A stretch of 64,000 nt of DNA from Alphaproteobacteria bacterium. GTDB lineage: Bacteria; Pseudomonadota; Alphaproteobacteria; UBA8366; GCA-2717185. The notes below the pieces were generated by a model. The model saw only the letters and a program-made list of their open reading frames with translations, was not told where the DNA came from and did no database searches. Where the stretch lies: assembly GCA_040905865.1 (NCBI GenBank), contig JBBDQU010000045.1, positions 26,536 through 90,535 of the forward strand, in the 5' to 3' direction. Every line of letters starts with the position of its first letter. The stretch's first letter is position 1. Made by a program: the position numbers and the translations under genes. Below, piece by piece: positions 11,394-55,646 of the stretch.

Positions 11394-12572
11394 ATGGACG
11401 GCGCGGAGGACGGGGTGCCGGTCGAACAGTACGGGCTGACCGACGAACAGCAGATGCTGCGCGAAACCATCCAGGCGGTGGCGCGCGACCGGGTGGCGCC
11501 GCGCGCGGCGGAGATCGACCGGACGGCGGAATACCCGCAGGACATGTTCGACCTGCTGCGCGAACTGGGCCTGTTCGCGCTGCCGTTCCCGACCGAATAT
11601 GGCGGCGCCGGCAGCATCCTGTCGGCCTGCCTCGCGATCGAGGAATTCGGCCGCGTCTGTTACAACACCGCCTATCTGCTGATGGTGCAATGGGCCCCGT
11701 TCGGCGCGATCCTCGCCGGCGGCACCCCGGAGCAGAAACAGAAATACCTGCCGGTGCTGGCCTCGGGCGAGATGCGCGCGGCGATCTCCGTCACCGAACC
11801 GGGCGCGGGGTCCGATGTCGCGGGCATCGCCACGCGGGCGGACCGCCGCGACGGCGGCTATGCGCTGACCGGCAACAAGATTTACTGCACCAACGCGGCG
11901 GTGGCGGATTTCATCCTCGTCGCGGCCAAGACCGACCCGGCCAAGCGCCATGGCGGCATCGGCATCTTCATCGTCGACGCCGATACGCCGGGGCTGGAGA
12001 TCGGCCGCAAGGAGGACAAGCTCGGCGCGCGCGGCGTGCCCTCCTCGGCGCTGCATTTCGACAACGCCTTCGTGCCGGAAGCAAACCGCATCGGCAGCGA
12101 GGATGCGGGCTTCAAGCTGGTCATGGAGGCCTTCAACAAGGGCCGCCCGATGATCGGCGCGCGCGGCGTCGGCCTGGCGCAGGGGGCGACGGACCTGGCG
12201 GCGCGCTACGTGAAGGAGCGCGTGGCCTTCGGCCAGCCGGTCGCCGATTTCCAGGGCGTGCGCTGGATGCTGGCCGACATGGCGATCCAGACCGAGGCCG
12301 CCCGGCACCTCGTCTACAAGGCGGCGGCGATGGCCGATGCGGGCGCTTCGGGCGCGGCGCTGGCGCCGATTGCCGCGATGTCGAAATGCTTCGCCACCGA
12401 CACGGCGATGAAGGTAGCGACCGACGCGGTGCAGCTGTTCGGCTCCGCCGGCATCGCCCGCGAAAACCCCATCGAACGCTATTTCCGCGACGCCAAGGTG
12501 CTGCAGATCATCGAAGGCACCAACCAGATCCAGCGCAACATTATCGGAAGGCACGTGGTGCGCTCGGCCTGA
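11394..12572 (+). CDS. Acyl-CoA dehydrogenase
   Basis: 392 residues with all family marks: GLTDEQQMLRETIQAVARD at the N-terminus, FPTEYGGAG, ISVTEPGAGSDVAGIATRA (FAD/substrate loop), RDAKVLQIIEGTNQIQRNI near the end. Glu374 of IIEGT is the expected catalytic base. Coming right after a racemase-like gene, it may act on 2-methyl-branched or other short acyl-CoAs. It is the last gene of the Nudix-to-dehydrogenase run; a palindrome of the local repeat family follows at 12595. Confidence 0.93.
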   Translation: MDGAEDGVPVEQYGLTDEQQMLRETIQAVARDRVAPRAAEIDRTAEYPQDMFDLLRELGLFALPFPTEYGGAGSILSACLAIEEFGRVCYNTAYLLMVQWAPFGAILAGGTPEQKQKYLPVLASGEMRAAISVTEPGAGSDVAGIATRADRRDGGYALTGNKIYCTNAAVADFILVAAKTDPAKRHGGIGIFIVDADTPGLEIGRKEDKLGARGVPSSALHFDNAFVPEANRIGSEDAGFKLVMEAFNKGRPMIGARGVGLAQGATDLAARYVKERVAFGQPVADFQGVRWMLADMAIQTEAARHLVYKAAAMADAGASGAALAPIAAMSKCFATDTAMKVATDAVQLFGSAGIARENPIERYFRDAKVLQIIEGTNQIQRNIIGRHVVRSA

Positions 12573-49623: not shown

Positions 49624-49938
49624 ATGACAGGAGAGGCGGACGGCGTCGATAGGAGCCGGTTTTCCGCTCCGGTGGATCATGCCACGGTAGCGGAATCCTG
49701 GCGGGAACGGGGCTATTCCTGCCATGCCTTTACCGATCCGCCCGGGCAGGAATGGAACGATTTCATCCATTCGACGAATGAACTGCTGACGGTGCTGGAA
49801 GGACGGCTGGAGTTGACGCTGAATGGCGAGAAAGTCGAAGTCGCGCCGGGCGACGAGGTGTTCATCCCGCGCGATGTGCCGCATTCGGTGAAAAATGTGA
49901 ATGGCGGCACCACCCGCTGGCTGTTCGGTTACGACTGA
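49624..49938 (+). CDS. Cupin-domain protein
   Basis: 104 residues from the ATG at 49624, which follows ggagg; an ATG at 49612 adds four residues. Single cupin: EWNDFIHSTNELLTVLEGRL and VAPGDEVFIPRDVPHSVKNV. Metal His residues are in IHST and PHSV, with Glu in NELL. It diverges from the SMP-30-like gene, fitting a small sugar- or lactone-linked pair, but the role is unknown. Confidence 0.82.
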   Translation: MTGEADGVDRSRFSAPVDHATVAESWRERGYSCHAFTDPPGQEWNDFIHSTNELLTVLEGRLELTLNGEKVEVAPGDEVFIPRDVPHSVKNVNGGTTRWLFGYD

Positions 49939-49980
49939 CCGTAAACCAGCGCATGGCAAATCGCCGCGGCCCGCAGCTCC

Positions 49981-52674
49981 TCATCGCACGGCGCCAGCGC
50001 GCCGGCGTGATCGCCGGCGTCGATCCGTTGCGCCACGCGCCGCGGAAGCGTGCTCGGGTTCGGGGAGGACGGGCGCTGCGTCGTGCACCAGGTTTAGCAA
50101 ACCGTCGGCCGACCTGTCGCGGGCCGCGCCGCCCGTGACCGCGTTGACGACCGTCAGCGCGAGCGCCGCCGCATAGGGCAGCGCCATGACCGCCAGGGCG
50201 GCAAGCCAGATCCCGTCCGCCGCCGCGAGCGGCGCCCGCATCACGGCGAACAGGATCGCGGCGCCGGTCAGCAGCGCGAGCATGAGGGTTTCCTCGCCCG
50301 CCATGGCGAGGGCCTGGACAAGCTGCGGGCCGCTCCGTTTTTTCGGCGTGCGCTGATAGGGCCGTCCGGATGTCGCCAGGCCCTGCAGCACGGCCTTTGC
50401 GACCGTATGGTTCAGCGCCAGACCGGCCAGCGCGGCGCCCCAGCGTTTCGGGGCCGAACAGGCGACGGCGCGCCGGTACAGGTGGAGGATCCGCCACTGG
50501 CGAAAGGCGAACGCGGCCAGCGCCGGGATCAGCACAATGACCGGCGGTGTATCCTGATTGGGCAGGACCGACAGCAGAACCGTCCAGACCAGGGCCGCAA
50601 CGGTGAAGACGAGGCCGGCGGCATCGGTCAGCCAGGGCAGCCAGCCCGCGACATAATGGAAGCGCTGCGCCGCGGTCAGCTTCGTATCGTCGCCGGTCAG
50701 GAACCAGCGCCAGTGACGTTTCAGGATCTGCATCGCGCCATAGGCCCAGCGCAGCCGCTGCATCTTATAAGCGCGCATGGTATCCGGCATGACGCCGCGG
50801 CCGTAGCTTTGCGCCGTATAGGCGGATTTCCAGCCGAGGCTGGCCAGTTGCAGGCCGAGTTCCGCATCCTCGGTAATGCACCATTCGGCCCAGCCGCCGG
50901 CTTCGCGCAGCGCGGTGTGGCGGACCATGGTCATGGTGCCGTGCTGGATTATCGCGTCGGCTTCGTTCCGCCGGACCATGCCGATGCGGAAGAATCCCGA
51001 ATATTCCCAGTAACAGCAGGCCTTGAACCCGTTCTCGCCCAGATCGCTGTAATCCTGCGGCGCCTGAACCAGTCCGATTTCCGGATCGGCAAAATGCGGC
51101 GTGAGATCCGCCAGCCAGTTGCTGGCGACGACATAGTCGCTGTCGATCACGGCAATGACATCGGCCCGTGGTGTGGTTTCGGCAAGCGCGAGGTTCAGCG
51201 CCCCGGCCTTGAAACCGGGCAGGGTATCGCGGTGGATGAACCGGAACCTGTCGCCCAGCATCCTGCAACAGGCCTCCACAGGTTTCCACATCGCCGGATC
51301 GGGGGTATTGTTGTCGACGACGATGACCTCGAAATCGGGGTAGTCGAGCGCGGCCAGGGCGGTCAGCGTGCGCCGGACCATTTCCGGCGGCTCCTTGCAG
51401 ATGGCGACGTGGATCGACACCATGCGCGGCGTGTCTTCAGGCCGGGCCGGGCCGAAGCGGCGCCGCATGCCGCCGTTCCACAACAGGTCGCTGGCCTCCA
51501 TGCCGTCGATGAAGACCCCCGCCAGCAGGAACAGCGCCGAAGCCAGCAATACGCCCCACAGCACCGTCTGCGCGATCGTGAGGTAGAGACCGGCCATGGT
51601 CATGACCAGCAGGACCAGCAGGGTTGCGGTTGTAAACGATGTGGCCGCGGTGAGCAGCGCGCCGCCTGTCCGCAAACCAGGCCGCCGGGCCATATAGGCG
51701 GCCGCCGGCATCAGGCCCAGCAGCGCCGCCAGTTGCGCCCATTCGAGCCAGTTGACGTGCTCCTGAACCGGACCGGTCCAGGAAAACTTGGGCTGCCGGT
51801 CGGCATCGAACAGGCCCCAGTAGCCGCCTGCCAGACCTTCCGGACCGATTTTCCAGGGCTGGTCGAACGCTTCAATGATGAAATAATCCAGGTTCCGGGC
51901 CGCCGCGGCATTGGCGAACCGGCGCAGGAACGTCGCCTGCGCGATGCGGCCGGCTTCGGCCTGCCGGATCGTCCGGCCCATGCTCGGCCAGCCGGTTTCG
52001 GTCAGGACGACGGGCTTGCCCGGATAGGCCGCTTCTATTTCCGCCAGCCGGGCAAAGGTATAACCGACGGCTTCTTCGGCGGCGATGCCTTCCCAGTACG
52101 GCAAAACCTGGACGCCGATGAAATCGACCGCCGCGGCGAGCGCCGGGTTCGCCAGCCAGATATCCCAGGTTTCCGCCGTGCTGACGGGTTTGCGGATACG
52201 GCTGCGGACCCGTTCGATTTCCGCGATCAGCGCGTCGGCTGACATGTCCTTGCGGAGCAGCGTTTCGTTGCCCACCAGGACGCGCCGGACGTTACTGTCG
52301 TTCCGCGCGATAGCGATGAGATTGTCGGTTTCACGCCGGTTCCGTTCCCGGTCGGGCCCGATCCAGGCGCCGGGCATGACGCCGATGCCCCTTTCGGCGG
52401 CCAGCGCCGGGATGTCGCGCAGCGTGCCGTCGACGCTGTATGTCCGCAGCGTCGCGGTCTGTCCGCGCAGGAGATCGAGGTCGCGGCCGATGGACTCCGG
52501 GGTCGGCATGTCGCCGTCCGTCGGGTCCTGCCCCGCGCCATAAGGGCTGTATGACAGGCCGGCCAGCGGCCCGCCGATCCATGCCGGCGCGGTGGCGGGC
52601 TGATTTGCAATTGACCAGAGGGCTACGGTCGTCGCGGTTGCGGCGACCAGAACCAGGAACGAAATGTACTTCAA
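49981..52674 (-). CDS. ndvB: NdvB-like beta-glucan synthase (GH17-like plus GT2)
   Basis: 897 residues. After a signal/anchor (FLVLVAATATTVALWSIA) come a GH17-like domain of about 300 residues, with catalytic Glu residues in VLVGNETLLRKD and VVLTETGWPSMG, several spans, then a GT2 domain: IHVAICKEPPEMVRRTL, AVIDSDYVV, TEDAELGLQLASLGW and QRLRWAYGAM (the QxxRW motif). The same order occurs in NdvB of Pseudomonas and the ndvB/ndvC glucan genes of Bradyrhizobium, which make periplasmic beta-1,3/1,6-glucans. Start overlaps the upstream LTA-synthase-like gene by four bases. Symbol by similarity only. Confidence 0.85.
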   Translation of the reverse strand: MKYISFLVLVAATATTVALWSIANQPATAPAWIGGPLAGLSYSPYGAGQDPTDGDMPTPESIGRDLDLLRGQTATLRTYSVDGTLRDIPALAAERGIGVMPGAWIGPDRERNRRETDNLIAIARNDSNVRRVLVGNETLLRKDMSADALIAEIERVRSRIRKPVSTAETWDIWLANPALAAAVDFIGVQVLPYWEGIAAEEAVGYTFARLAEIEAAYPGKPVVLTETGWPSMGRTIRQAEAGRIAQATFLRRFANAAAARNLDYFIIEAFDQPWKIGPEGLAGGYWGLFDADRQPKFSWTGPVQEHVNWLEWAQLAALLGLMPAAAYMARRPGLRTGGALLTAATSFTTATLLVLLVMTMAGLYLTIAQTVLWGVLLASALFLLAGVFIDGMEASDLLWNGGMRRRFGPARPEDTPRMVSIHVAICKEPPEMVRRTLTALAALDYPDFEVIVVDNNTPDPAMWKPVEACCRMLGDRFRFIHRDTLPGFKAGALNLALAETTPRADVIAVIDSDYVVASNWLADLTPHFADPEIGLVQAPQDYSDLGENGFKACCYWEYSGFFRIGMVRRNEADAIIQHGTMTMVRHTALREAGGWAEWCITEDAELGLQLASLGWKSAYTAQSYGRGVMPDTMRAYKMQRLRWAYGAMQILKRHWRWFLTGDDTKLTAAQRFHYVAGWLPWLTDAAGLVFTVAALVWTVLLSVLPNQDTPPVIVLIPALAAFAFRQWRILHLYRRAVACSAPKRWGAALAGLALNHTVAKAVLQGLATSGRPYQRTPKKRSGPQLVQALAMAGEETLMLALLTGAAILFAVMRAPLAAADGIWLAALAVMALPYAAALALTVVNAVTGGAARDRSADGLLNLVHDAAPVLPEPEHASAARGATDRRRRSRRRAGAVR

Positions 52675-54284
52675 CGGTGCAAGGCTCCCGCCAGACGCGG
52701 GGATGAATCAAGCGCGTGCAGCAGCAGGTGGTTCAGCGCATCCATGCGCATCAGTACCGGCGACGCCGGGGTGAGACCGGGCTGGAACCCGGCGGTGGCA
52801 AAGCGCTCCAGGATGGCGCTGTTGCGCGAAAAAATATGGACCGGAACCGCCCATGATGCGGCGGCCCCGCTGACTACCGCAGGCGGCTGGTGATCGCCCA
52901 GAACGACGATCAGGGCGTCTTCGGGCGCCCGCTTTTCCAGGAATCCGCCAAGCATCTGGAGATTGTATCGGATGGACCGCAGGTAGGCCGGCGTCATGTC
53001 CTGCCAGTCCGGCGCCAGCGCCAGCGCGGCGTCCGCTTCCGCCGGGTCGAACGGCGTTTCCGTCGCGATCCGCCCCCAGTCCGCCTGGTATGGCGGGGTC
53101 GGACCGAACGGCAGGTGACTCATCACCGAGGCATAGGTCAGGAACAGCGGCTTCCGGTCGCTGCGGCTGATTTCGGCATGGTGGAAGGCTTCCAGGCTGG
53201 CCTGGTCGGGAATCGTCCACCAGCCGAAGGCCGGGCCGCGATAGGCGATGTTCCTTGACGTCATGATTGAATCGAAGCCCATCGCCGCGCCTTCCGGCCA
53301 GTTCAATCTGATCCCCGGGAACAGGGCCACGGTGCGGTATCCGGCCTTCCGGAACCGGTCGACCAGCGTTTCCGGAGGGGCGGCCAGAAACATCCGGTAT
53401 TCCGGTTCGCGGGTGATCCAGTCGCCCGTCAGCAGCGTCGCATGGGCCAGCCAGGATCCGCCGCCGAATGTCGGGGAATCGACGAGCGCCGATACGGATT
53501 GCCAGCCGGATCTCGCGAGCACGGCGTTCAGGTTTTCGTAATCGCCCGCAAGCGCGGTTCGCATCTCCGGCCGGTCATGGACGATCGCGCCGTAGGATTC
53601 GAAAAAAAACGTATAGACATCGCCGCCTCCGGCATGCGCGAGGTCGGAAGCGGGCATGACGGCGGGCTGGCGCATGTCCGCCCGGCTCGCCCTGATCAGG
53701 AAATTGGCCTGCGCCGCGTAAACCGGTGTTACGGGCAAGGCATATGCCGTCGCCGTTCCCGTATGAACGCCGGCGGAATTGACCGAATACAGGACGATCG
53801 CCAGGACCGAGGCGATGCCGACGCCGCGCCGCAGTCCCGCAACCGGCATGGCGGCGAGGATTCCGCCGACCGCCAGGCGGATGGTCAGGTAAAGGATAAT
53901 GACGCCTGCAACGATGCCAACAGCCAGGGCGATAACCTGCCAGGCGGGGGCGCTTTCCATGATCATGGCGACAACCGCGGGCAAATGCTGCGCATCCCAG
54001 TACAGGTCGATCGGCCGTCCGAAGAGCGCCGGCGCCGTAATGTCCGCATAGCGGCCGATAACGAGCAAGAGCAGGGCCGCGGAGACGGCCCAGCGCGCGG
54101 TCCTGCCCGGCAGGCCGCGAAACTCCGTCACGACTGCGAAGGCGCACAGGAGTATGACAATTTCGATGGATATTTCGGGTGTGCTGCGGACCCAGGGTGT
54201 CGGCCAGACATTTTGCAGGGTCAGCAATACATTCAAAAAAGCCGCCCCGGCGGCCAGGCCCACAAAAATACGCAATACTGTCAT
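52671..54284 (-). CDS. LTA-synthase/phosphoglycerol-transferase-like membrane sulfatase-fold protein
   Basis: 537 residues: five or so N-terminal spans to about residue 170, then a periplasmic alkaline-phosphatase-like domain. Its site is seen as YTFFFESYGAIVHD, SPTFGGGSWLAHATLLTG (Thr/Ser nucleophile region) and VVLGDHQPP (metal ligands). Relatives move phosphoglycerol or phosphoethanolamine to polymers (LtaS, OpgB, EptA). As its stop overlaps the start of the glucan synthase (ATGA), it may decorate that glucan. The family is certain, the substrate is inferred. Confidence 0.8.
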   Translation of the reverse strand: MTVLRIFVGLAAGAAFLNVLLTLQNVWPTPWVRSTPEISIEIVILLCAFAVVTEFRGLPGRTARWAVSAALLLLVIGRYADITAPALFGRPIDLYWDAQHLPAVVAMIMESAPAWQVIALAVGIVAGVIILYLTIRLAVGGILAAMPVAGLRRGVGIASVLAIVLYSVNSAGVHTGTATAYALPVTPVYAAQANFLIRASRADMRQPAVMPASDLAHAGGGDVYTFFFESYGAIVHDRPEMRTALAGDYENLNAVLARSGWQSVSALVDSPTFGGGSWLAHATLLTGDWITREPEYRMFLAAPPETLVDRFRKAGYRTVALFPGIRLNWPEGAAMGFDSIMTSRNIAYRGPAFGWWTIPDQASLEAFHHAEISRSDRKPLFLTYASVMSHLPFGPTPPYQADWGRIATETPFDPAEADAALALAPDWQDMTPAYLRSIRYNLQMLGGFLEKRAPEDALIVVLGDHQPPAVVSGAAASWAVPVHIFSRNSAILERFATAGFQPGLTPASPVLMRMDALNHLLLHALDSSPRLAGALHR

Positions 54285-54665: not shown

Positions 54666-55646
54666 CTATGCCGGATCCAGAACCGACGTATTGACGACCA
54701 TGCCCCGGTCCAGCGAGCCGTCCAGCGCGTCGACGACATTCTGCGCGCAGGTGATGGCCATGCGATGCGCGGATTCGCGTGTGACGCCGGCGATATGCGG
54801 GCTGAAGATGACATTGTCCAGCCGGAACAGCGGGTTGTCCTTTCTCGGCGGTTCCGATTCAAGGACGTCGAGCCCGGCGCCACGGATGGTCCTGTTTGAC
54901 AGCGCCGCATGCAGCGCCCCTTCGTCGACAATGCCGCCGCGCGCGCAATTGATCAGGATAGCGCTTTCCTTCATGGCCTCGAATTCGGCCGCGCCGAACA
55001 TGTTGGCGCATTCCGGCGAAAACGGCAGATGCAGCGACACGTAGTCCATATCCGGCAGTGCTGCCCGGAAATCCGCGACGGGCTTGCAGCCTGCGGCAAC
55101 AATGACTTCCGGCGAAACATAGGGGTCCGCGACGTGGACATCCATTTCCAGCGCCAGGCAGCGTTTTGCCAGCCGCGTGCCGATACGCCCGAAACCGACG
55201 ATCAGCAGCTTCTTTTCCCAAAGTTCGATCGCATGGGTGTTCAACCGGTAATCCCAGTTCCCGGCGCGTACCGCCTGGTCATGCTCGCGGCCCATCTTGG
55301 CCAGTTCGAACATCATGAACATGGCGGCTTCGGCAACGGGGACGGCATTGGCCGTGCCGATGACCGCCAGCGGAATGCCGCGCGCATTCAGCGCAGGGAC
55401 ATCGATATTGTCGTAGCCGACGCCATAGCGGGACACGATCTTCAACCGGTCGGCGACGGCAATGACTTTTGGTGTGATGATCGCGGTGCGGACGGTTACG
55501 CCGTGCACGCCTTTCATCTTCGCAATCAGGTTTGCCTCGGATACGTCGGTCACGACCTCATAGGCGATATCGTCCCGCGCCTCGAATATATCGGTCGCCG
55601 CCGGGGGCATGGGACCCAGAACCAGTACCTTCCAAAGGTTATCCAT
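54666..55646 (-). CDS. D-isomer-specific 2-hydroxyacid dehydrogenase (SerA-like)
   Basis: 326 residues. NAD motif VGFGRIGTRLAKR at about 149-161; catalytic Arg in INCARGGIVDEGAL, Glu in LDVLESEPP and His in FSPHIAGVT; LKIVSRYGVGYDNID and GTANAVPVAEAAMFMM in the substrate domain are also conserved. It reduces a 2-keto acid to its D-hydroxy acid or works in the opposite direction, as in phosphoglycerate or hydroxypyruvate dehydrogenases. Without the ACT domain it is not a classical SerA. It diverges from the kinase-fusion gene. Confidence 0.93.
   Translation of the reverse strand: MDNLWKVLVLGPMPPAATDIFEARDDIAYEVVTDVSEANLIAKMKGVHGVTVRTAIITPKVIAVADRLKIVSRYGVGYDNIDVPALNARGIPLAVIGTANAVPVAEAAMFMMFELAKMGREHDQAVRAGNWDYRLNTHAIELWEKKLLIVGFGRIGTRLAKRCLALEMDVHVADPYVSPEVIVAAGCKPVADFRAALPDMDYVSLHLPFSPECANMFGAAEFEAMKESAILINCARGGIVDEGALHAALSNRTIRGAGLDVLESEPPRKDNPLFRLDNVIFSPHIAGVTRESAHRMAITCAQNVVDALDGSLDRGMVVNTSVLDPA

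Follow-up and report, generated by a model that had tools for sequence, protein, structure and literature searches.

The stretch of DNA analyzed here (the window) comprises 64,000 nt of contig JBBDQU010000045.1 from an alphaproteobacterial genome. Two open reading frames on its minus strand, 52671–54284 (537 aa) and 49981–52674 (897 aa), encode a putative transferase and a putative glucan synthase and share 4 nt. Genomes and loci used for comparison are labeled with G and L numbers, respectively. The following features were distinguished at the locus:

52671..54284, minus strand: membrane head-group transferase of predicted LtaS fold, 537 aa, with 5 transmembrane helices followed by a periplasmic sulfatase-superfamily domain (open reading frame, PF00884, AlphaFold, PDB structure matches)
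53775..54281, minus strand: N-terminal membrane part of the transferase, residues 2–170, helices 2–21, 40–56, 61–88, 114–144, and 149–170 (secondary structure of the model)
52674..53672, minus strand: catalytic domain of the transferase, residues about 205–537 (model range matched by LtaP/LtaS chains)
52685..52689, minus strand: GGGAG, Shine–Dalgarno-like, 10 nt before the TTG start (sequence reading)
52671..52674, minus strand: TTGA stop/start overlap (sequence reading; kept in 6 relatives)
49981..52674, minus strand: NdvB-type GH17-GT2 glucan synthase, 897 aa (open reading frame, Pfam, PDB match, alignment)
51787..52575, minus strand: GH17 domain, residues 34–296, invariant E137 (GNE) and E226 (TETGWPS) (4wtp match, alignment)
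50563..51429, minus strand: GT2 domain, residues 416–704, invariant D511/D513, E602-D603, and QRxRW (639–643) (Pfam, alignment)
49929..50036, minus strand: remnant (the first 35 or so codons) of a third gene, TPR/GT9-like, that overlaps the 3′ end of ndvB out of frame (comparison with kin)

The shared nucleotides are TTGA, combining the TGA stop of the transferase gene with the TTG start of the synthase gene; the minus strand reads ...CCGTTGAAG... at this point. The initial annotation had described the coupling as ATGA; the overlap itself is real, but the letters were misread. The same TTGA junction was found in six relatives (G001, G002, G003, G007, G009, and L032) at protein identities down to about 54–57%, the sole exception within the kin group of the window being G004 (L084), where TAG, 9 nt, and ATG follow one another. 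Conservation of the overlap across kin argues against chance and also fixes TTG as the start codon. True ATGA overlaps were present in four gammaproteobacterial loci (L071, L075, L078, and L085), and overlaps or short gaps between transferase and NdvB genes are kept in both alpha- and gammaproteobacteria. Coupling by itself was rejected as insufficient proof of a common substrate.

Upstream of the pair, the window encodes a 2-hydroxyacid dehydrogenase (54666–55646, minus strand); this gene order is conserved, since L030 also has a gene of the same Pfam family ahead of the pair, as do, going by clustering, L032 and L034. In the kin genomes G001 and G003, the third gene is a long TPR gene that runs over the 3′ end of ndvB in a different frame (loci compared: L020, L021, and L032); its intact homolog in L032 matches TPR and GT9 models.

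The 897 aa protein contains a GT2 domain (PF13641, 6.7e-24). The GH17 domain was weak in Pfam (23.9 bits, under the 28.2 cut-off) and clear in comparison with the solved beta-1,3-glucanosyltransferase 4wtp (2e-27, residues 34–296). The GH17 catalytic pair and the GT2 motifs D,D,(E/T)ED,QxxRW were all present, with E137, E226, D511, D513, E602, D603, and Q639–W643 invariant in 9/9 sequences; we take these residues to have their usual catalytic roles. NdvB of P. aeruginosa was 45% identical to the window synthase over the full length. With GH17 at the N-terminus and GT2 at the C-terminus of a single membrane protein, the synthase is assigned by sequence to the NdvB-type GH17-GT2 family, which agrees with the initial annotation of an NdvB-like GH17+GT2 protein. 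One NdvB-type gene was found in the genome to which the window belongs. This protein has the domain order and the catalytic motifs of Pseudomonas NdvB, the 'Orphan' BcsA-like GH17-GT2 cyclic beta-glucan synthase (PMC10237404).

Regarding the transferase, Sulfatase (PF00884, 6.3e-11) was its only Pfam match. NCBIfam has no family for it, and neither an OpgB nor an LtaS model was among the matches of 21 members. A sequence search of the PDB gave no significant relative (LtaP, E 0.91); it is the predicted fold on which the assignment is based. The AlphaFold model (pLDDT 87) consists of five N-terminal membrane helices and a periplasmic domain. Its best matches among solved structures were LtaP, LtaS, and GacH of Gram-positive bacteria, which likewise have an external catalytic domain (Z 20–22, rmsd 3.3–3.8, 257–277 residues, roughly 270); LtaP and LtaS matched the catalytic domain with Z about 21–22. 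Residues E229, T272, H390, D464, and H465 were invariant in 21/21 aligned sequences. Their roles (Thr as the nucleophile; Glu, Asp, and His as metal ligands) are carried over from LtaS, which has the same residue order (Glu, Thr, His, Asp-His) and also five transmembrane helices. The predicted model thus combines the alkaline-phosphatase/sulfatase fold with a putative active site of the LtaS/OpgB type. Unlike the three Gram-positive enzymes, with which it has 10–16% identity, the transferase lies in a neighborhood offering a glucan rather than a poly-glycerolphosphate or GAC acceptor.

The transferase profile was compared with three enzymes of E. coli: OpgB was the nearest (E 0.037), followed by OpgE (0.14) and EptA (0.26). 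BLASTP against OpgB gave E 1.5, and hhalign gave a probability of 1.4%. Since OpgB was nearest without reaching significance, the window transferase is not OpgB proper, and the family, as judged by sequence, is distinct from OpgB. Of the 'LTA-synthase/OpgB-type' enzyme proposed initially, the LtaS fold is retained for the predicted model, but membership in the OpgB family is not. The window transferase and OpgB share the superfamily, a membrane N-terminus, and a periplasmic catalytic domain, and the same kind of reaction is plausible; OpgB (MdoB), phosphoglycerol transferase I, is longer (763 aa vs. 537 aa) and serves the OpgH/OpgG beta-1,2 glucans, according to the part of PMC3818809 available to us. 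Our literature search found no chemistry or genetics on the present family.

MCR-type phosphoethanolamine transferases followed LtaP, LtaS, and GacH by a small gap (Z 19–20). With this common fold, an enzyme of the EptA/MCR/OpgE kind would add a zwitterionic rather than an anionic substituent. EptA-type enzymes contain several disulfides in the periplasmic domain; 20/21 of the transferase sequences lack a periplasmic cysteine, and a disulfide-rich domain was not found. The profile matches to OpgE and EptA were also weaker than that to OpgB, none being significant, and we regard a phosphoethanolamine transferase as very improbable.

Alignments A1 and A3 omit the transferase of G002 (L013), whose reading frame contains a TAA; A3 also omits L101 (in-frame stop) and L009. 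L013 and L101 were kept in the transferase tree with X at the stop. In the record of the same genome with both genes (L031), the TAA lies near position 1919, at about residue 178, and the synthase downstream is open; the stop reflects either decay or an assembly error, the genome being incomplete.

The neighborhood survey called for initially was carried out on the 80 named loci closest to the window transferase out of 166 confirmed ones. In 17 of these best 80 loci, all from alpha- and gammaproteobacterial metagenome assemblies, the transferase gene was followed immediately by a co-directional NdvB gene; in three more, the alphaproteobacterial loci L069, L079, and L102, the two were convergent. 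The transferase tree had 94 rows, repeats and rows of <380 residues being left out; the pairing count on it covered 83 rows, 19 of them paired, with 11 rows set aside because the locus ended ≤600 nt from the gene. The pairing state changed at least five times on this tree and at least five times on the NdvB tree (45 rows), gain and loss not being distinguishable, and alpha and gamma pairs formed separate clades in both trees.

In a class draw of 241 alphaproteobacterial genomes, both genes were held by 11 of the 19 genomes with the transferase (expected 3.8; Fisher 1.5e-4, kinship ignored), and they were adjacent in just 2 of these 11. A PF00884 gene was located ≤5 kb from NdvB in 2/48 alphaproteobacterial NdvB genomes (G000 and G228), as judged from gene coordinates; PF00884 misses several family members (e.g., in G183 and G263), which were also non-adjacent in the family search. 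Pairing as a general trait of NdvB was rejected on this 2/48 count.

A second set of genes accompanied the transferase. It encodes a BchC-like dehydrogenase, a RibD_C reductase, PTPS, a GT4 glycosyltransferase, a CDP-alcohol phosphatidyltransferase, and a methyltransferase-like protein; some loci add GTP cyclohydrolase II, creatininase, and YceI, the last two often. These cluster genes were present in 38 of the best 80 of the 166 transferase loci, and a divergent phosphatidyltransferase gene lay ≤1.6 kb from the transferase gene in 33 of the same 80. The cluster is widely conserved in Pseudomonadota and Acidobacteriota (loci including L009, L036, L041, and L119). In the genome of the window it is located on another contig, with the following genes:

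L115 7073–13248, contig 85 (C85): span of the cluster
L115 7073–8185: cyclohydrolase
L115 8191–8997: phosphatidyltransferase
L115 9176–10036: RibD_C
L115 9996–10982: dehydrogenase
L115 11008–11415: PTPS
L115 about 11450–12484: GT4

Co-occurrence was scored in two genome draws by one cluster marker, the BchC-like dehydrogenase. In the class draw, 19 genomes had the transferase, 34 had the dehydrogenase, and 18 had both (expected 2.7; Fisher 6e-17, kinship ignored). In a phylum draw of 397 genomes, the numbers were 24, 32, and 18 (expected 1.9); the draws overlap by a few genomes, and without the four named shared ones the phylum draw gives 16/22. The 6/24 phylum-draw genomes with the transferase but without the marker were five of one family with distant transferases, plus G605. 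Transferase and cluster co-occurred in 11/11 searched genomes of the window's family, and the marker was present in 11/11 class-draw genomes holding both the transferase and NdvB. A phosphatidyltransferase match was obtained in 17/17 chosen genomes (that of G002 partial, at a contig edge), beside the dehydrogenase in 16/17 and on a separate contig in G091. No paper describing the cluster was found in the open-licence PMC literature, and it is apparently undescribed and unstudied.

Glucan decoration, as proposed in the initial annotation, is the natural reading of a pair that is conserved and coupled in alpha- and gammaproteobacteria; the general idea is already in print (PMC2997053, PMC10237404). 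The phosphoglycerol substituent claimed with it fared worse: the transferase family tracks the cluster (18/19 genomes) far more tightly than it tracks NdvB (11/19), an indication that the donor is a different lipid. Phospholipids are both the products of CDP-alcohol phosphatidyltransferases and the source of the head groups that LtaS-fold enzymes remove; the linkage thus suggests the cluster's lipid as the donor for this family. We regard it as moderately probable that the pair forms a synthesis and decoration unit for a periplasmic beta-glucan and that a dedicated phospholipid, produced by the C85 cluster, is a likelier donor than plain phosphatidylglycerol.

The GT2 domain would polymerize glucose in the cytoplasm, and the chain would be passed through the membrane. 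In the periplasm, the GH17 domain would cut and rejoin the glucan, probably cyclizing it as proposed for Pseudomonas NdvB. The LtaS-fold enzyme would remove the phospho-head group from a membrane phospholipid via a covalent Thr272 intermediate and place it on glucose hydroxyls, yielding a charged glucan, while the gene overlap would keep synthase and transferase in step.

GTP cyclohydrolase II and RibD_C in the cluster suggest that the head group may be a GTP-derived, ribityl- or pterin-like alcohol. Put more broadly, and only tentatively, glycans may receive from this family the head group of a phospholipid not yet described. The cluster phosphatidyltransferase would make the lipid, with a GTP-derived head group such as a ribityl- or pterin-type alcohol phosphate, and the NdvB glucan would be the acceptor in the lineages with coupled pairs. 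In three alphaproteobacterial loci (L036, L041, and L119, the last from G228), genes for the phosphatidyltransferase, YceI, the transferase, NdvB, and an IF-2B-family protein follow one another on one strand, as identified by Pfam on L036 and, for the phosphatidyltransferase only, on L119, and by clustering for the rest. This run suggests donor lipid, transfer, and acceptor in sequence.

Alternatively, phosphoglycerol could be moved to the NdvB glucan from ordinary phosphatidylglycerol, the cluster being unrelated to the reaction in the organism of the window. The top structural matches are phosphoglycerol transferases, OpgB is, weakly, the closest of the three E. coli enzymes by profile, and the cluster lies on a different contig in this genome. 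The NdvB glucan of P. aeruginosa bears glycerol phosphate, as stated in the accessible part of PMC2997053, which also makes phosphatidylglycerol a possible donor. The near-complete co-occurrence of family and cluster, including all searched genomes of the window's family, and the directly adjacent divergent phosphatidyltransferase in 33 of the best 80 of 166 loci make this donor doubtful. The P. aeruginosa case also counts against a decoration unit: in the record examined, its ndvB is flanked by tcdA and dapE and no transferase gene adjoins it, unlike the coupled window synthase, although its glucan is decorated.

Most relatives of the transferase are encoded away from NdvB and many beside the cluster, so glucan cannot be the sole acceptor of the family. 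The enzyme might act on a non-glucan that the cluster GT4 helps to make, either a glycolipid or a different sugar of the envelope, and its coupling to ndvB would then be co-regulation of two envelope functions. The many relatives in cluster loci with GT4 and without NdvB are consistent with this, as is the absence of NdvB from 8/19 class-draw transferase genomes. Pairs with tight overlaps in separate clades are, however, poorly explained by chance operon formation, and all class-draw genomes holding both genes have the cluster marker; we consider a non-glucan acceptor unlikely for the coupled pair.

The synthesis and decoration unit, as a general idea, was partly anticipated. In the accessible part of their paper, Spiers et al. 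(2023) described the GH17-GT2 family, proposed an MdoB-like enzyme as the decorator, and reported one adjacent synthase–MdoB pair, in Desulfofustis glycolicus, as the sole example known to them (PMC10237404). There, too, a GH17-GT2 gene adjoins a homolog of phosphoglycerol transferase, but, going by that paper's description alone, the synthase gene is upstream, in the opposite order to the window. The present pair thus differs in gene order, in conservation, and in a transferase family without a significant OpgB match. The one-off neighborhood of 2023 gains a family base, namely a distinct transferase family that is coupled to NdvB in several clades.

The new lead is the link of this family, distinct from OpgB, to the apparently unstudied cluster. 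Should the cluster lipid prove to be the donor, a widespread but unexplained set of genes would have a function, and a new substituent would be added to those of periplasmic glucans; if the GTP-derived lipid is real, both it and the periplasmic glucan decorated with it would be new in kind and spread across Pseudomonadota and Acidobacteriota. Cultured bearers of the transferase together with the cluster include Thiocystis violacea, Thiorhodococcus minor, and Peristeroidobacter agariperforans (loci L050, L063, and L103).

Searches of plasmid records added only the NdvB of P. aeruginosa and a Thiodictyon cluster. One P. aeruginosa plasmid record (L008; NZ_CP131792.1, 846,886 bases) contains ndvB, dapE, and other genes of chromosomal appearance, suggestive of a piece of chromosome on a megaplasmid or a matter of assembly.
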